Positions 445 to 62,391 of a stretch of DNA of 64,000 bases are shown here, one piece after another. The notes under the pieces are model-generated. The model searched no databases. It was not told the DNA's origin and saw only the letters and a list, made by a program, of their open reading frames with translations. The position numbers and the translations under genes were made by a program. The stretch is from NCBI GenBank assembly GCA_017524805.1, contig JAFXUX010000009.1, forward strand, positions 62,001 to 126,000, written 5' to 3'. Position 1 is the first letter of the stretch. Each line of letters opens with the position of its first letter. This DNA comes from Candidatus Methanomethylophilaceae archaeon. GTDB taxonomy: Archaea > Thermoplasmatota > Thermoplasmata > Methanomassiliicoccales > Methanomethylophilaceae.

Positions 445-2262
445 ATGGAAACCTTAGAGCAATTGATTTCCAAGGCCGAAGCAGGGGACGTGCAGTCCTG
501 CTTCGAGCTAGGGCAGAGATATGCGCTCGGTGAGGGCACCGATGCGGATGAGAAAGCGGCATTCGATTGGTACCTTCGCGCTGCCAGAGGAGGCAACGTC
601 ATGGCCCAAAAGGCGGTAGGCATCTGTTATGCCAATGGCATAGCCACAGATGCCAACTGGGATGAAGCAGCCATGTGGTACCTCCGCGCCCTCATGAAGG
701 GCGACCCGGAAGCGTTCCGCACCCTGTCTGACTATTACGAAACGCACGAAACACCGGCCGACGGTGCCATTCTCGAATATTACCGCAGCGCGTCCGAAAA
801 GGACGATGCAGATGCCAACTATATGTTGGGCAGGCTGTATGAGCTCGGCGTCGGCACCGCATTCGATCCGGAAAACGCATTCGAATCGTACAAAAAAGCA
901 TGCGAGAAAGGCCACATCGATGCCAAAGTCAAAGTCGCGACCTGCATCCTCGAAGGATTGGGAACGAGCAGAGACCGCGAAAAAGGAGCGTCGATGATCT
1001 CCAAGCTCTGGGACGAAGGATGTGTCTCAGCGGGATCCGCCCTCGCCAAATGCTACGAGTACGGAACCGGAGTCAAACGCGACCACTCCAAAGTCTTCTC
1101 CATCTACGACCAGATGGTAAGCAAAGGATCGGTCGAAGGGATGTACAACCTCGGAAGATGCTACATGGACGGAATCGGAGTCCCTAAGGACGGCAACTAT
1201 TCGTTCTCCTGGTTCACCGCGGCTGCCATGAGGAACTCCCGCGATGGCATATACGGTCTCGCCAGATGCTATATGGGAGGCATCGGGGTTGACAAAAACA
1301 AGGACACCGGCTTGAAGCTCCTCGAGAACGCATCGAAGCTCGGTCAGACCGACGCCATGATCATGCTGGGACAATTGTACAGCAAAGGCAAGCTCGTGCC
1401 GAAGAACGCCCAGATCTCCGCAGAGAATTTCAAGAGATCTGCCGACCTCGGAGATTCCTACGCCCAGCTGACCACCGGCGACAACTACGCCAACGGAACG
1501 GGCGTCAAGAAAGACGGCAGAGCCGCGCTGAAATACTACATGATGTCCGCCGCGCACGGAAACACCGTCGCCTGCTACAATGTGGGAACCGCTTACGCGC
1601 TCGGAAATGGGGTCAAGAAGAATGAGGAGGCCTCGTTCGAATGGCTCTCCAGAGCTGCCGAGGACAACTTCATGAAAGCGCAGTTCTCCATAGCCGAGGC
1701 ATACTCCAAGGGAAGGGGAACCAAGAAGGACCCCGAGAAAGCCTTCGAGATCCACAAGAACCTCGCCGAGAACGGATTCGGCAAGTCGCAATATCATGTG
1801 GCATACTCCTATTTCGAAGGGATCGGCACCGAGAAGAACGATGCCCTTGCCTACGAATGGTTCCAGAAGGGAGCCCAGAACGGCAACGTCCTGTGCCAGT
1901 ATTATGCTGGATACTGCCTGTGGAATGGGATCGGCGTCGAAGCCGACCAAGACAAAGCCATCGAATGGTACAAGCGCGCCGCAGAGCAGGGACACGTGGT
2001 TTCCAGGCAGATCGTCGAGGAGGTCACCGGAGAGAAGATCAAATCCAAGGACGAGGAATCGCCTTTCGAATCCTATCTCCGCAAAGCCAAGAACGGCGAC
2101 GCCGAAGCCATGTTCATCGCCGGCCGCTGCTATCTGGACGGAGTCGGCACCGAGAAGAACGCCGATGAAGCCATGAAATGGTTCAACAAAGCGGCCAAAG
2201 CTGGGAACCAGGCTTCCGCCAGGATTCTCAACCAGATGAAGAAGCAGCAGAAAGCAGAATGA
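445..2262 (+). CDS. Sel1-repeat protein (about 605 aa)
   Basis: Nearly the whole protein is built of Sel1-like tetratricopeptide-type repeats of about 36 residues. The units carry the usual signs: an A-x-x-x-LG-x-x-Y segment, a G-x-G-V/T turn followed by K/D-rich residues, and A-x-x-W/Y-x-x-x-A-A. Sel1 proteins form alpha-solenoid scaffolds for protein-protein contacts. There is no signal peptide or membrane segment, so it is probably cytoplasmic. A TTG at 433 is in frame, but ATG 445 fits a TATA box about 27 bases upstream. The binding partner cannot be told from sequence. Two more Sel1-type genes occur at 56.4 and 62.6 kb. Confidence 0.9.
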   Translation: METLEQLISKAEAGDVQSCFELGQRYALGEGTDADEKAAFDWYLRAARGGNVMAQKAVGICYANGIATDANWDEAAMWYLRALMKGDPEAFRTLSDYYETHETPADGAILEYYRSASEKDDADANYMLGRLYELGVGTAFDPENAFESYKKACEKGHIDAKVKVATCILEGLGTSRDREKGASMISKLWDEGCVSAGSALAKCYEYGTGVKRDHSKVFSIYDQMVSKGSVEGMYNLGRCYMDGIGVPKDGNYSFSWFTAAAMRNSRDGIYGLARCYMGGIGVDKNKDTGLKLLENASKLGQTDAMIMLGQLYSKGKLVPKNAQISAENFKRSADLGDSYAQLTTGDNYANGTGVKKDGRAALKYYMMSAAHGNTVACYNVGTAYALGNGVKKNEEASFEWLSRAAEDNFMKAQFSIAEAYSKGRGTKKDPEKAFEIHKNLAENGFGKSQYHVAYSYFEGIGTEKNDALAYEWFQKGAQNGNVLCQYYAGYCLWNGIGVEADQDKAIEWYKRAAEQGHVVSRQIVEEVTGEKIKSKDEESPFESYLRKAKNGDAEAMFIAGRCYLDGVGTEKNADEAMKWFNKAAKAGNQASARILNQMKKQQKAE

Positions 2263-24622: not shown

Positions 24623-25089
<467 letters not shown>

Positions 25090-31315: not shown

Positions 31316-32668
31316 TTACGGCCTGTCCTCGAGGCCCACGTATTCGCGCTCATCCAGAGTGTTCACGTACGCGGGACGGAGGATCTTGTTGGAAGTGATC
31401 AGCTCCTCGATGCGATGGGCGCTCCAACCGACTATCCTGGCTATGGCGAAGAACGGAGTGTAAAGCTCGCGGGGGATGTCCAACATGTCGTATACCAAAC
31501 CGCTGTAGAAGTCGACGTTGGCGCATACGCCGTTCTTGTTCTTTTTCTTGGCCATTATCAGGCCCGGCGCGACCTTCTCTATCGTGCTGTACATCCTGAA
31601 ATCCGCCTGCCTGTGCTTCTCGACGGCAAGCTTCTCCACGTATCCCCTGAACACTTCGGCCCTCGGATCGGATATGGTATAGATCGCATGGCCCATGCCA
31701 TAGATGAGGCCCTGATGATCGAAAGCCTTCTTGTCGAGTATCTTCCCCAGATATGCCGAGATCTCTTTCTCGTCCTCGACATTGTGGACATGCTTCCTGA
31801 TGTCGTCCATCATGTCCATGACTTTCAGATTGGCTCCGCCATGTTTGGGGCCTTTGAGCGAAGACATCGCCGCGGCAATCACAGCATAGGTGTCAGATCC
31901 GCTGGAAGTAGTCACGCGGGTCGTGAATGTGGAGTTGTTCCCTCCGCCGTGCTCCATGTGAAGAACCAACGCCAAATCCAGCACGGTCGCCTCCAGATAA
32001 GTGTATGACTTGTCTGGCCTGAGCATCCTGAGGATGTTCTCCGCGGTCGTGAGGCTGGGATCGGGGCGGTGGATGTACATGCTCTCGTCGTTGATGTAGT
32101 GGTTGTAAGCGTGATAGCTGTAGACTGTCAGCATAGGGAAGACGCTGATCAGGTAGATGCATTGCCGGAGCACGTTCGGAATCGAATTGTCCATGGCCTT
32201 CTTGTCGTATGAGGACAGGAACAGCACGCTCCTGGTCATGGAGTTCATGATGTCCTTGCTGGCAGCCTTCATTATTATGTCCCTGGTGAATGTCTGCGGA
32301 AGCTTGCGCTCCTCGGAGATGTGGGCTTTGAACTCTGCCAATTGGGCGGCATTGGGCAGAGAGCCGAAAAGCAGGAGGTATGCGGTTTCCTCGAACCCGA
32401 ACCTTTTGTTGGCGAACCCTTCGCATATCTTTTTGATGTCGTATCCGCGATAGCAAAGCTTCCCGGGGCATTGGATCTTCTCCCCGTCGACATACTACGA
32501 GCCGTCCACCTGTGAGACTCTGGTCAGGCCTACGATGACCCCGTTGCCTTGGGAGTCGCGAAGCCCTTTCTTGACGTCGTATTTCGAATAGAGGTCCGGA
32601 GAGAATGCGTCGCTCTCGATGCAAAGCTGGCACTGCCTCTCTATGTAGCTCTTGTATCCGTTCCTCAT
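31316..32668 (-). CDS. Citrate synthase with in-frame TAG, probable pyrrolysine
   Basis: The frame gives 57 residues, a TAG at 32495-32497, then 392 residues to TAA. The total of 450 is right for the large citrate/2-methylcitrate synthase subgroup. Before the TAG is KKGLRDSQGNGVIVGLTRVSQVDG, a conserved start (split here: KKGLRDSQGNG, then VIVGLTRVS). After it come CPGKLCYRGYDI, the His in LHMEHGGGNNSTF, GPKHGGAN, and GMGHAIY with an Asp-containing DPRA. All active-site elements lie after the TAG, so termination there would abolish the enzyme. ATG 32668 has GGGGA eight bases upstream. It condenses oxaloacetate and acetyl-CoA. Confidence 0.88.
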
Positions 32669-56434: not shown

Positions 56435-57262
56435 ATGGAAAGAATCACGGATGCTGAATCGCTGAAAGATGCGGTCCGCGCGGCCGAGAACGGAGACGGA
56501 AAAGCCCAGAAAGAGCTCGCCGGAATCGCCGGACGCGAACTAGAGAGGATCGGCATGGAATCGCTGGACAGTTTGGCGGCGGAAGAGAACTCCTGGGCGC
56601 TGCTCCTTATCGGACGCGCATACGAAGAGAGCAGAGAAATAGACGGCGATTTTGGGACCGCAATCACCGCTTATGAGGACTCGGCCGCAAAGGGCAACCC
56701 CTATGCGATGGCAGCACTGGCAAGGCTTTACGAAAAGGGAGATGGCAGAACGAAATCTCTCTACAACGCGTATCTCCTCCACAAGAAAGCCGCTTCCGAA
56801 GGGCTGAGCTCTTCCGTGGAATGGCTGAAAATGCATGGCGAGGATGCGGAAGAGCTGGGAAGAATCATCGACGGTTCCGAAAAGGGCGACGCGGATTCCA
56901 GATACAGGCTCGCGCTCGAATACGAAAAGGGAGAGCGCATCGAACGCTCGGCCACCAAAGCGCTGGCATTGATGACCACTGCTGCCAGCCAAGGCCATGA
57001 GGAGGTCGCGTTACATGCCGCAGATATGTTCCTGGAAGGCTTGGGAAACCCTGCGTTCCGCGGGATTGGCATCTGCATGCTGGCGACTCTGGCTGAAAAC
57101 GGATGCGAGAAAGCGCAGAAAAAAATCCGTTCGATGACACCATTCGATCTGAGCGAATGCGACGGCGAGGATCTGAGAAGGCTCGCATCGAAAGGTTCGT
57201 CATGGGCCGAAGCGATTGTTTCCATGATAGACGGGGAGGAACCGGACGAACATTTTTCATGA
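56435..57262 (+). CDS. Sel1-like repeat protein (275 aa)
   Basis: About five degenerate Sel1-type repeats are seen, such as AYEDSAAKGNPYAMAALARLYEKGDG and DSRYRLALEYEKGERIERS (cores AMAALARLYEKG and YRLALEYEKG). The G-x-G-V turns are weaker than in the Sel1 protein at 445. There is no signal peptide. The gene overlaps the following leucine-rich-repeat gene by four bases (ATGA), so the two products are probably made together. The role is unknown; adaptor function is inferred from the fold. Confidence 0.8.
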   Translation: MERITDAESLKDAVRAAENGDGKAQKELAGIAGRELERIGMESLDSLAAEENSWALLLIGRAYEESREIDGDFGTAITAYEDSAAKGNPYAMAALARLYEKGDGRTKSLYNAYLLHKKAASEGLSSSVEWLKMHGEDAEELGRIIDGSEKGDADSRYRLALEYEKGERIERSATKALALMTTAASQGHEEVALHAADMFLEGLGNPAFRGIGICMLATLAENGCEKAQKKIRSMTPFDLSECDGEDLRRLASKGSSWAEAIVSMIDGEEPDEHFS

Positions 57263-58545
57263 GAGCCAACGATTGGCGGAGCATGGGGAGGGCAGAAAAG
57301 TTCAGGGAGCTGTTCGGCATCGGTGGCCATCCGGCCGATCCCCTCATGATCCCGAGGCTGATGCAGTTCGGCGGCTTCGATCCCGAAGACGTGTATGCCG
57401 TCGAATCCGCCTGCGGCCTTTCCCCCCAAAAATTCGTTCTCTGCTATTCGTCCTCGGACCTCGCCGAAGCGTCCGTTGCCCTGAAGGAACTGTCGGAGGG
57501 GATCCAGAACATCGCGCCGATAGTTGCGGACATGAGGAAAGCGCGGGGCCTCGAGGCGATCCGCATGGAATCTGGGAAGGACAGGGCGTCCCTCCTGAAA
57601 TTGATGATCGAGGAATCCGGCAAGGAATCCCTGACTGAGAACCGCATGATGGATGCCGGGTTCCCGCTGGCGGACTGCCTGATGGTCGGATACATGGAAA
57701 GATGCTGCCGCAAAGCCTTCCTCAGGATGGCCTGGGATCAGGATCCGTCGGCGGCGAGGAAAGCGGCCGAATCGATAGCGGATGCCACCGGGCTCGACAT
57801 CAATGAATTGAGATCTTTCATGAGGGACCTCCGCGGAGATGAGCCTGAGGATACCGAAACGGAAGCCAAACCAGACCCAGGATTGAAATTCAAAAAGATA
57901 CGCGTCTCTGAGGCGGCGATAACCGGGTATGAGGGATCAGAAAAATGCGTCATCATACCTGAAACCGTCTCGGTCGGCGGGAAAGATCTGCGCGTGACAT
58001 CGATATCGGACAGCGCATTCGCGAGGAACAGAGAATTGGGAATGGTGAAGATGCCGGAAGGCACCGTGACCATCGGAAAATATGCGTTCTTCGGATGCGA
58101 ATCCCTCTCTGATGTGGATTTTCCCCCGACCCTCCGCGCCATAGGTGACGGAGCCTTCAGCAGATGCGGTTCCCTGAGGGAAATAAAGCTCCCGAGCTCT
58201 CTGGAATCGATAGGGGCCCAAGCGTTCCTTGGGGCGCCCATAGAGAAAGCCTTCATCCCGGGGAGCGTAATGCTCATCGGCCCGCATGCTTTCGGGTCTG
58301 GCACCAAGCTCTCCGGGAAAAAGCTCCGATCAGATGCAGCACTTCCTGATCTCCAGCGCCTGCTTGGCACGCCCAGGCGAAATCTTCCTGTTCTCCGGAT
58401 CCTTCAGATAGGCGATTACGTCGTCGATCACCATGATCTACCTCCTATCCGCGGATTCGCGCATGAGCGTGTATCTGACTTTGTTCCAATCGGTGAAGGA
58501 CCTGAGGGCGTAAGCCGCTTCGTTGGTCTCCGCCTTAGCGGATGA
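57259..58545 (+). CDS. BspA-type leucine-rich-repeat protein; 3' end uncertain
   Basis: The first 200 residues are helical and unrecognised. Residues about 205-350 form BspA/LRR_5-type repeats (ITSISDSAFARNRELGMVKMP, IGKYAFFGCESLSDVDFP, IGDGAFSRCGSLREIKLP, each I-x-x-x-A-F-x-x-C-x-x-L-x-x-V/I-x-x-P). The protein lacks a signal peptide, so it is probably intracellular, unlike classic BspA surface proteins. From about 58330 the frame runs antisense to the small gene and the end of the AIPR gene, so the last about 70 residues are probably read-through of a lost stop. Confidence 0.72.
   Translation: MRANDWRSMGRAEKFRELFGIGGHPADPLMIPRLMQFGGFDPEDVYAVESACGLSPQKFVLCYSSSDLAEASVALKELSEGIQNIAPIVADMRKARGLEAIRMESGKDRASLLKLMIEESGKESLTENRMMDAGFPLADCLMVGYMERCCRKAFLRMAWDQDPSAARKAAESIADATGLDINELRSFMRDLRGDEPEDTETEAKPDPGLKFKKIRVSEAAITGYEGSEKCVIIPETVSVGGKDLRVTSISDSAFARNRELGMVKMPEGTVTIGKYAFFGCESLSDVDFPPTLRAIGDGAFSRCGSLREIKLPSSLESIGAQAFLGAPIEKAFIPGSVMLIGPHAFGSGTKLSGKKLRSDAALPDLQRLLGTPRRNLPVLRILQIGDYVVDHHDLPPIRGFAHERVSDFVPIGEGPEGVSRFVGLRLSG
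58330..58434 (-). CDS. Small ORF (34 aa) or TAG-linked tail of the AIPR protein
   Basis: GGAGGT followed five bases later by ATG (58434) is a near-ideal ribosome binding site, and the frame ends at TGA (58330-58332). The product is charged and helical with a CC near its C terminus. The ATG is in the same frame as the AIPR gene, two codons after its TAG stop. The segment could therefore be a separate small protein or, if TAG is read as pyrrolysine, a 36-residue extension (TAG-Ile-Met onwards) of AIPR. No homologue is recognised. Confidence 0.45.
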   Translation of the reverse strand: MVIDDVIAYLKDPENRKISPGRAKQALEIRKCCI

Positions 58546-60357
58546 CGCAGCTATCCTCTCCGCGGACTGGGCGGAAGTCAGGCAATGGGCAAACGCCGCC
58601 GAATCGGTCGGTATCGCCATGGCAGAGAAGGATTCCCAGCACGTTTCGCGCCTGCATTCCTGAAGCGGATTCCCGCCTGCGTCCGAGATGTCCGAAAGGT
58701 ATTCCTGGAAGACTCTGCCCGCGGACAGCGCGAAGCGGACGAGGGATTCGTCGGCCGATTGCCTGTCCCAGATCTCGTCCCAATCTATCTCGTAACCCCT
58801 GTCCCTGATGGTGGATATGACCTTAGAAACGGCGTACGCGCAGATCTGGGGCCTCAGCGAGCCTTTGAACCAATCCGACTTTCCGATCGCGTCGTATGTA
58901 TCTCCGTACAGGATGGCCGCCGAGACTACGCGCTTGAAATAATCGGCGCCGAAAGACGACGGCTCCTCGGAGAACTCCTTCGCCACGGCCCTGGAGAAAT
59001 AGCTGTAGCAGGTCTGCCCGCCTTTGGAGATGATGTCCGGGCGGAGATCGATGAGATACCTGTACTTGGCGAAGTCTATCTTGTCTATGCGCCTGGATTT
59101 GTCGTAAGTCCTCCTGAACTTTGCGCGGTCATCCTCGGTGCCCTTCGACGAATCCTGCTCATACTGGCCTCTGGTACGCTCGTAATACCATTTCGCCTCG
59201 GAATTGGGGATCGAGCAGGAGCGGGAAGCGTTCTCCATGGCGATCTGGAACTCGCTGCTGGAGCTGAGATCGGATTCCTTCACCGCGTTCTGGGTGTTAA
59301 CGAAGATGGAGATATTTCTGACGATGTCGAAAGCGTCATCGGAAGACACGACGACGAGCTTCATCGGGACGTATATCTCGGATAGCTTGTCTTTGAATTT
59401 GGTTTTCAGCTCTTTGAAAAGGGATACCGTGGTCTGTCCGCCGTTGACTATCTGGAGGTTGGTGAACGAGGTTATTCCGCCGGGGCCGATCTCGACTTTC
59501 GAAGCCGTCAGCGCCACGCCGTTGTTGTACGCGAAGAACATCCCGGGATCCTCGCGGATGGTGTTGCGGATGCCTTTGTTCACCTTGGTCTTCACCGTGA
59601 GGAAAGACCTGACGTTGGATTCCAGAAGCCTGCTCCCATAGTCGCGGTAGATCAGGGCGAGGAAAAGCCCGGGGACAGAACCTATGTAGCTGTTGCACCC
59701 GTTGCTGGACCCGGCTTTGACGCATGGTATGGCGGAGAATCCGAAATCGGATACGTTGATTATGCGATCGTCATCCGGGCGGGAAGATCCCAAAGTCTCG
59801 CGGATGTATGCCATATCTATCAGGCGGAGAAGGACCGGCTTCCCTCCGAGATCCCTGTCTTTGATCTCCCTGAACCTTACGCTGCGAAGCCTGTCCGTGA
59901 CCACGTAGATGAAAATACGGTCATACCTGTGGTATCCCATGCGGATGTGCTTGGCCAAACCGTGGCCTGCGCTGTCTGGGTCTGAAGCTGCCTCTATGGA
60001 TCCGTCCGCGGATTCCTCGATGAAAGCCAAGCAACGCCTGGCATAATCGTTGAATTCGGTCTCTGTCATCCTGGGGGGGTCCGGCTCTCCGGAATAGTCG
60101 CAGGCGAAGATGCTTAAGGTGCAATCGCTCAGACCGCCTTCCCCGTCGGTATCGGCGTATCCATGGACTTCGATGGCCCTGTTGCGCTTTCCCGTGCCGC
60201 GATAGAAGCACGGTTCGGCCTCGGGGCACACATCGTATGCGGCCATCTCTTTGGTGGCCTCAGCCAAGAACCTCTCCGATGCCTTGGCCCCAGTAGCGTT
60301 CGCGTCCGCTTTTATGTCTTCAAGATACTGCCTGCGGAAAGATTCGATGTCGTCCAT
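58438..60357 (-). CDS. AIPR-family (abortive infection/phage resistance) protein
   Basis: The 639-residue protein matches the AIPR family (PF10592). The central block shows NVRSFLTVKTKVNKGIRNTI and DPGMFFAYNNGVALTAS (cores NVRSFL, VNKGI and FFAYNNG), then LQIVNGGQTTVSLF and FVNTQNAVKESDL. AIPR proteins occur in anti-phage loci, often beside nucleases, helicases or methylases; their biochemistry is not settled. Here it is the third gene of an operon with two unrecognised proteins, ten bases after the second. The stop is TAG (58438-58440), rare in this window, and the frame continues for 36 codons beyond it. Confidence 0.85.
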   Translation of the reverse strand: MDDIESFRRQYLEDIKADANATGAKASERFLAEATKEMAAYDVCPEAEPCFYRGTGKRNRAIEVHGYADTDGEGGLSDCTLSIFACDYSGEPDPPRMTETEFNDYARRCLAFIEESADGSIEAASDPDSAGHGLAKHIRMGYHRYDRIFIYVVTDRLRSVRFREIKDRDLGGKPVLLRLIDMAYIRETLGSSRPDDDRIINVSDFGFSAIPCVKAGSSNGCNSYIGSVPGLFLALIYRDYGSRLLESNVRSFLTVKTKVNKGIRNTIREDPGMFFAYNNGVALTASKVEIGPGGITSFTNLQIVNGGQTTVSLFKELKTKFKDKLSEIYVPMKLVVVSSDDAFDIVRNISIFVNTQNAVKESDLSSSSEFQIAMENASRSCSIPNSEAKWYYERTRGQYEQDSSKGTEDDRAKFRRTYDKSRRIDKIDFAKYRYLIDLRPDIISKGGQTCYSYFSRAVAKEFSEEPSSFGADYFKRVVSAAILYGDTYDAIGKSDWFKGSLRPQICAYAVSKVISTIRDRGYEIDWDEIWDRQSADESLVRFALSAGRVFQEYLSDISDAGGNPLQECRRETCWESFSAMAIPTDSAAFAHCLTSAQSAERIAASSAKAETNEAAYALRSFTDWNKVRYTLMRESADRR

Positions 60358-60367
60358 TGTAAAAACC

Positions 60368-61504
60368 TCAGCTATCCCAGATAATCCTCAGAAAATGCTC
60401 TGCCTCCTCCAAAACGGGCCCGCTTATCCTGGGGCCGCAAGCATCTTCCTCGGAGAAAATGCCGTCGGCCACCGACCAATCGAACCCTTTCACATCGAGA
60501 AGCGGTTTGACCTTGCCGTATGGCGCCGCCATTATGCCAGGATCCAATGCCACGGCGACAGCATCGAAATAGCATGGGCGGTTCCTGAGCTGCGAGACGG
60601 ATTCGTCGCAAAGCTTGCGCATGATTATGACCTTATAGGATTCGCCGCTGCGCTCAGCCTTATACATGCTCGTAAGGCTGTCCCCCCAGATGCGTGTTGC
60701 CTTGTAACCGCTGAGATCCAAAGCCGTAACATATACGGTCTCTGCGGCGGCGAACCTGAAGCTCTCCGGAACTTTATCCTCGGCGCTGTCGACGCCTTCA
60801 GCCACCAGAATGCCGAAAGGATAGATAGAAGATGACATCTTAGACACCGCCGGATTGCCGTAGGGATCGGAAGCGACCAATACTCTGCTTCCGAAGGCGT
60901 GCTTGGCCCAATCAGGACAGCCGTATATGCGGCCGGATCTCACTTTGGTCGCCAAGAAGCCTGACATGAAACCGTCATCAGATACGCGCAGGTCCTCGGG
61001 GATGGATGCGCATCTGACGCACAGCCCCTTGTCGTCCACCGAAATCTCGGACGATGATGCCAAAGAATGCGATATGCCTGCTTTGTCAAGTACATCCGAA
61101 TAATGCCGGACCACATCCCAATTGTCAGACTCGAACCTTATGATGCCGTCCTCAGCCGAAGCGAGAAGGCCGTCTGCCACGCTGTCGCCGGTGACCCCCT
61201 CGTATTTGGGGATCGCTTCGGCGCCGCCGAGAAGCTTGGATGCCATCGAATCGGCGATCCTCGTCGGAACGTCTACCGGCTGGTGCTGCATCCTGCGTAT
61301 AGGCTCCGAAATCTTGCATGAAACCGTTCCAGAACCTTTCCCGACGATGTCGAACGGGCCTATCAGCTCATTTCCGCAGGACACGAATGCGCGGTCGGCC
61401 CCGTCAGCCGGGGATACGGCGAAACGGGACATCGCCGGAGCCACGCCTGTATAAAGGAAGGATGGCAACGCTTTCGAATCGATCGGAAGTATCACATACA
61501 CCAT
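60368..61504 (-). CDS. Unrecognised AIPR-linked protein (378 aa)
   Basis: The protein is of mixed alpha/beta type with no signal peptide, membrane segment, P-loop, zinc motif or nuclease signature that I can identify. A Gly-rich GPFDIVGKGSGTVSC region near residue 55 and FGSRVLVASDPYGNPAV near residue 215 stand out. Its ATG overlaps the TGA of the zinc-ribbon gene (TGATG) and its stop is ten bases before AIPR, so all three are one transcript. Its position suggests a sensor or effector in the same system. Confidence 0.75.
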   Translation of the reverse strand: MVYVILPIDSKALPSFLYTGVAPAMSRFAVSPADGADRAFVSCGNELIGPFDIVGKGSGTVSCKISEPIRRMQHQPVDVPTRIADSMASKLLGGAEAIPKYEGVTGDSVADGLLASAEDGIIRFESDNWDVVRHYSDVLDKAGISHSLASSSEISVDDKGLCVRCASIPEDLRVSDDGFMSGFLATKVRSGRIYGCPDWAKHAFGSRVLVASDPYGNPAVSKMSSSIYPFGILVAEGVDSAEDKVPESFRFAAAETVYVTALDLSGYKATRIWGDSLTSMYKAERSGESYKVIIMRKLCDESVSQLRNRPCYFDAVAVALDPGIMAAPYGKVKPLLDVKGFDWSVADGIFSEEDACGPRISGPVLEEAEHFLRIIWDS

Positions 61505-62391
61505 CAGATGCCCCTCCTGCGAAGGCTGCACATGTAATCCAGCATGGATGCCACCTTGACGTTCCCCTCCTGCTCGAAGTATTCCTCGAAGGGGGCTATA
61601 TCCTCGTCCGCGAAGCATTCCACCGAATCCTCTGCCACAAGTATGTCGCAATCGAATCCGCTCCTTTCGCGGATCTTCGATTCGTCTACTATAGGGCCGT
61701 ACGTCATCTCGACGCATTTGAAAGCCACTTTTCCAGGCCCCAACGATACGACGCCGGTGCATTCGGCCATGACCAGATCCAATAGCCTGAGCATGACCTT
61801 CTCGCGCATGGCCATGCCGATCTCATAGGCATACCTTCTGCCGCCGGCATTGCGCTCGAAACACTCCGGAACAGAATTCTCTGCGTCGCTGTACCTTATG
61901 AGCTCGTCCATATCGGTCGTACGAGGTTTTCCTTGGCTGTCGCAATATGCGGCGCAAAGCCATTCCCAGTGGTCGGAATAGATGCCGCGGAGCCATTCCC
62001 CGTCCTCGGCGCTGACGCATGTGCGGAGCGATTCGGAAAATGATGCCAATTCCGGCGAATCAGTCAGGCGATATCTCCCGTCATCTCCGATAACGATGGA
62101 ATAGCCTTCTTTCTTCATGGATCTCAGCGTCTCTCCCAGTTTGGGAACCACTGAGAAATAACGGCGTGTGGCGGGGCCTTCGGAGAGAGAATCGACAATG
62201 AAACGCTTTCTGGCGCCGATCCCCTCCGACATCGCTGCCCAAGCCTTCTGAACTTTGCCATGGCATGAATCGCATAAAATAAGCGGATCCGCACCCATAC
62301 TGTTGTAGCAGCTTTCCTGCGAGACCAAAGCGCCGCAACGCTCACATTGCAAAGGAATCCGCGAATTCCGGCGTGCGGGCGATTTATCCAT
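61504..62391 (-). CDS. Zinc-ribbon protein, first gene of the AIPR operon (295 aa)
   Basis: The N-terminal 50 residues are basic and hold a zinc-binding element CERCG...CDSC (residues 16-42). The rest is alpha/beta with several aromatic patches (SDHWEWLCAAYCDS) and an acidic C-terminal third. I do not recognise the family. Zinc ribbons of this sort often bind DNA or RNA. The ATG follows an A/T-rich promoter region near 62400-62425. It is coupled to the next gene by a TGATG overlap. Confidence 0.75.
   Translation of the reverse strand: MDKSPARRNSRIPLQCERCGALVSQESCYNSMGADPLILCDSCHGKVQKAWAAMSEGIGARKRFIVDSLSEGPATRRYFSVVPKLGETLRSMKKEGYSIVIGDDGRYRLTDSPELASFSESLRTCVSAEDGEWLRGIYSDHWEWLCAAYCDSQGKPRTTDMDELIRYSDAENSVPECFERNAGGRRYAYEIGMAMREKVMLRLLDLVMAECTGVVSLGPGKVAFKCVEMTYGPIVDESKIRERSGFDCDILVAEDSVECFADEDIAPFEEYFEQEGNVKVASMLDYMCSLRRRGI

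Follow-up and report, generated by a model that had tools for sequence, protein, structure and literature searches.

The AIPR gene and the codons around its internal TAG

The window analysed here is a stretch of 64,000 nucleotides from the genome of a rumen-type Methanomethylophilaceae archaeon, represented by one draft assembly of 47 contigs with 55% GC. On its minus strand lies an AIPR gene that starts at 60357 and runs for 639 codons (60357-58441) to an in-frame TAG. The frame continues beyond the TAG with Ile-Met and 33 further residues, I + MVIDDVIAYLKDPENRKISPGRAKQALEIRKCCI, and then closes in TGA. The features of this locus are as follows.

58330..60357 (-): AIPR gene including the internal TAG, 675 codons plus TGA
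58438..58440 (-): in-frame TAG, AIPR codon 640, read directly from the sequence
58333..58437 (-): AIPR codons 641-675, the native C-terminus as judged by homology and dN/dS
58330..58332 (-): TGA stop, in register with orthologues
58440..58445 (-): GGAGGT, Shine-Dalgarno-like, overlapping the TAG
58432..58434 (-): ATG, AIPR codon 642, where translation of a 34-residue peptide may restart
58402..58446 (-): predicted helix, residues 638-652 (AlphaFold2), whose first turn includes residue 640
58336..58377 (-): predicted last helix, residues 661-674 (AlphaFold2 and alignment), with the conserved RAKQALEIR motif

An earlier note on this DNA described AIPR as ending in TAG with an open frame afterwards. 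The TAG and the open frame to the TGA are present, including the Ile-Met and 33 residues it listed, but the TAG is internal (codon 640) and not the end of the gene. The GGAGGT-n5-ATG arrangement was also found exactly as described, with GGAGGT at 58445-58440, five intervening nucleotides and ATG at 58434-58432 on the minus strand.

The protein belongs to the AIPR family, with PF22879 at residues 30-185 and PF10592 at residues 245-539, the latter scoring 258.5 bits against a gathering score of 25. The AlphaFold2 model (mean pLDDT 85) places helices at residues 595-620, 624-633, 638-652 and 661-674, and termination at the TAG would take off the last two helices of this helical C-terminal domain. 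No structural relatives were found in the PDB at E<=0.001, the best match being a ParB-N domain (E 0.067). Directly upstream of AIPR are two conserved genes (window 60368-62391 (-)) for a CxxC-containing protein and a protein of ~380 residues, neither of which matched a Pfam, NCBIfam or PADLOC family. The order of these two genes and AIPR is kept in four relatives, and the three may form an undescribed AIPR operon. A viral source was considered and rejected, as only one distant relative was found in IMG/VR.

A convergent LRR_5 ORF (57259-58545, plus strand) runs antisense into AIPR. In two relatives the LRR orthologues are 349-354 residues long, so the ORF here has probably been over-extended past a real gene end near 58320, or else the stop of the gene has been lost. 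We rejected coding overlap with this ORF as the cause of the open AIPR frame because the LRR frame is unconstrained over the tail: against the nearest relative, the tail gave a dN/dS of 0.24 in the AIPR frame, where its pS equalled that of the body (0.47 and 0.48), whereas the antisense reading of the LRR ORF gave about 1.0. The 35-codon openness past the TAG is unremarkable on its own. In a smaller sample of gene calls, the frame stayed open for at least 35 codons after the stop in 35% of those ending in TGA and 47% of those ending in TAA, and the strand opposite the AIPR tail is likewise open. It is the homology of the segment after the TAG, in frame with AIPR, and not its openness, that goes beyond chance.

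Homology of the segment beyond the TAG

The 34-residue peptide starting at the ATG was searched against 147 genomes of the order. It matched six genomes, all from the same genus, with E values from 5e-13 to 1e-5, and in five of these six the match was the end of the AIPR frame itself, with TGA at the same end. The sole short frame matching the peptide, in genome G084, sits at the edge of its contig, which shares a 15-base overlap with the contig carrying AIPR. Strong matches were found only in AIPR frames or at this contig end overlapping AIPR.

In the six close orthologues, codon 640 was GAC, GAT or GAG (Asp/Glu in 6/6) and never TAG, so the TAG is not conserved; all six run on from there in homologous sequence as far as TGA. 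Where the window has Met at codon 642, relatives have Ala, Gly, Glu or Asp. The nearest relative, MAG Tb.RUG.172, has an AIPR 90% identical to that of the window but split over two contigs, and its join across the TAG-equivalent site is deduced from a 15-base contig overlap. This overlap reads AGG AAG GAC ATC GCC, against AGG AGG TAG ATC ATG in the window. K639R, TAG640 and Met642 are all derived in the window's lineage, and jointly create the Shine-Dalgarno-like sequence and ATG.

The wider AIPR alignment held 35 sequences, namely that of the window and 34 others (5 close, 29 more distant archaeal or bacterial). The earlier note had proposed comparison of AIPR homologues as the test that could refute it, and no aligned homologue ends exactly at the TAG position: all 34 extend beyond that column. 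The C-terminal module reads PKE...P.EKQ in bacteria and KD/KE...P.RAKQALEIRK here, with the TAG sitting on the E. The segment is present in bacterial AIPRs and also in Pyl-carrying relatives that have a sense codon at this position. Judged by this homology, the 35 codons past the TAG encode the C-terminus that AIPRs normally have rather than a new addition.

TAG within genes across the source genome

A pyrrolysine-containing protein requires tRNA-Pyl, PylS and PylBCD. The genome encodes all of these, with pylT (tRNA-Pyl, anticodon CTA) followed by pylS, pylB, pylC and pylD, together on contig C25. It also requires homologous in-frame coding on both sides of the TAG, which we found for AIPR, and use of TAG as a sense codon elsewhere in the genome, which we also found. 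In a sample of 1.08 Mb of stretches from the same genome, TAG ended only 50 of ~958 scored gene calls, in line with the earlier note's remark that TAG stops are rare in the window; across the order, amber seldom serves as a stop (PMC3941956). Stops were considered testable when at least 15 in-frame codons followed without cover by another gene. A coding-like extension followed 23 of 34 testable TAGs compared with 24 of 240 TGAs (Fisher 9e-13) and 9 of 37 TAAs, counts that are approximate as the gene caller was home-made. AIPR, which the over-long LRR ORF overlaps, was left out of these 34 TAGs.

Pfam domains span a TAG in MtmB, MtbB, citrate synthase, lumazine synthase, HAD phosphatase, FeoB and TsaD. 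A TAG likewise interrupts an RNA polymerase A''-like subunit, upstream of its Pfam match. The window itself contains citrate synthase (PF00285, 2e-116; 31319-32668 (-)), with TAG at 32495-32497 (codon 58), and a lumazine synthase-like gene (PF00885; 24619-25089 (+)), with TAG at 24766-24768 (codon 50). The citrate synthase TAG occupies the same codon in five species of the genus (here and in four others), and an HAD-phosphatase gene has one TAG here and in four others. By contrast, tsaD (Kae1; contig C6:57447-58427 (-)) has an in-frame TAG at codon 119 that is private to the source genome, with none in nine relatives. AIPR finds its closest parallel in this private TAG, which sits in a universal gene whose function is indispensable. 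Three further TAG-interrupted genes of the same genome are possibly defence-related.

C5:35388-36686 (-): helicase-like gene, TAG inside
C28:7924-10158 (-): helicase-like gene, TAG inside
C10:30497-30889 (-): HNH endonuclease gene, TAG inside

On contig C21, around 720-1259 (+), a tandem TAG-TAG separates an upstream frame from the cysteine desulfurase that follows in frame. This arrangement resembles true termination; TAG thus seems not to serve purely as sense in the genome and may be ambiguous. Taken together, the gene sequences indicate that the genome probably reads TAG as pyrrolysine, the 22nd amino acid. In 2025, archaea that decode TAG as pyrrolysine genome-wide were reportedly described.

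Decoding of codon 640 and relation to known systems

We consider it highly probable, on comparative sequence evidence, that the TAG is a sense codon inside a 675-residue AIPR, with pyrrolysine at residue 640 incidental to the genome's sense use of TAG. tRNA-Pyl (anticodon CUA), charged by PylS, would read TAG as pyrrolysine in many genes without a special signal. Codon 640, ancestrally Asp/Glu, would have drifted to TAG, which from GAG takes one substitution. The full 675-residue AIPR would then carry pyrrolysine at the start of its penultimate helix, within the first turn, whilst a release factor probably still ends a fraction of translation, leaving a product of 639 residues that lacks both final helices. 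According to a review (PMC8211752), no particular mRNA context is required for pyrrolysine to be inserted; the outcome depends on how tRNA-Pyl competes with release factor, and readthrough reaches up to 97% in methyltransferase genes. What we observed is that homology continues across the TAG, that the pyl genes are present and that other genes use TAG as sense; we infer insertion at codon 640, its efficiency and the lack of a special role. Such a role for pyrrolysine at residue 640 is unlikely because the TAG is not conserved among orthologues.

The earlier note's suggestion of a readthrough tail holds as regards readthrough, in line with homology across the TAG, the complete Pyl system and the other sense TAGs, but the segment is the normal C-terminus and not an added tail. 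Its proposal that pyrrolysine supply is linked to the activity of a defence effector found no support. In principle full-length AIPR depends on pyrrolysine, but essential genes such as tsaD share this dependence and it is thus not evidence for dedicated regulation.

Alternatively, AIPR could be split, with a stop at the TAG and re-initiation through GGAGGT at the ATG two codons on, and the resulting 34-residue peptide, bearing the last two helices, may dock in trans. GGAGGT-n5-ATG is exact and arose in the window's lineage (AGG TAG ATC ATG, against AAG GAC ATC GCC in the nearest relative), and GGAGG stands 3-10 nt upstream of only 124 of 8782 internal ATGs in the genome sample (1.4%). By rough arithmetic, the chance for any one TAG to be accompanied by a Shine-Dalgarno sequence plus an ATG within two codons is ~0.0008, or ~4% over 50 TAGs. 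However, GGAGG is present at only 11% of called starts, and the Pyl machinery would compete. An ATG within two codons followed ~3 of 25 sense-like TAGs against ~1.5 expected, pointing to no general arrangement, and TAG-ATG adjacency as a genome-wide stop-restart device was rejected as not above chance. The separate small protein envisaged in the earlier note is possible, given a genuine Shine-Dalgarno sequence and ATG, but the search of the 147 genomes of the order found no homologue standing alone as a gene. We regard the split as improbable. A newly evolved dual-decoding switch, in which charged pyrrolysine gives one-piece AIPR and its lack gives termination, coupled restart and a two-piece AIPR with the C-terminal helices in trans, seems very improbable; if true, the state of a defence protein would track pyrrolysine supply.

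The TAG could also be a recent nonsense mutation that truncated AIPR at 639 residues in this lineage, leaving the old C-terminus to decay. The tail differs at three of 16 otherwise invariant positions (K639R, R673C, V675I; R673C is radical) against 2/272 in the body (Fisher 0.0013, in a post hoc comparison chosen after being seen), an excess that gives a slight hint of relaxed constraint. Yet the tail has no frameshift or extra stop, its changes still favour third positions (7, 4 and 13 by codon position) and its AIPR-frame dN/dS is low as noted above (0.24). The tail also outpaces the body in several orthologue pairs, and TAG lies inside essential genes of the same genome. A nonsense mutation is quite improbable. 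Assembly or sequencing error at codon 640 is hardly credible: the draft comprises 47 contigs and the nearest relative has a contig break at the same spot, but three adjacent codons jointly differ from relatives in a clean frame and many other TAGs in the genome act alike. The ~4% coincidence of Shine-Dalgarno sequence and ATG and the 3/16 tail changes leave room for a restart peptide or relaxed constraint if readthrough is partial.

With the TAG read as sense, AIPR here likely adds a pyrrolysine-containing protein of defence type. Sense use of TAG in this archaeal lineage reaches ordinary and universal genes, including those for TsaD, citrate synthase and probably an RNA polymerase subunit, and standard gene calling therefore truncates or splits such proteins. 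Both Pfam domains score above cut-off, as in the AIPR family and the MzaE and AbiU-like abortive infection proteins, and the PADLOC profiles for MzaE (2e-75) and AbiU (1e-27) match. By contrast with MzaE of the MZA system, the protein scores 317 bits against an equivalog cut-off of 1050 (NCBIfam NF041935). In the methylamine methyltransferases MtmB, MtbB and MttB of the same genome the TAG lies inside a conserved domain, and pyrrolysine in these enzymes is established as catalytic and conserved (PMC8211752), whereas in AIPR the TAG occurs in a single genome, in place of Asp/Glu. A further likeness is found in ISO4-H5, also of the Methanomassiliicoccales, where 46 genes have in-frame amber codons, Cas3 among them (PMC5011839). 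As in AIPR, these ambers occur in a pyl-carrying archaeon, reach beyond the methylamine methyltransferases and include a defence gene; in our archaeon that gene is AIPR, whose TAG lies close to the C-terminal end and adjoins a Shine-Dalgarno-like sequence and an ATG.
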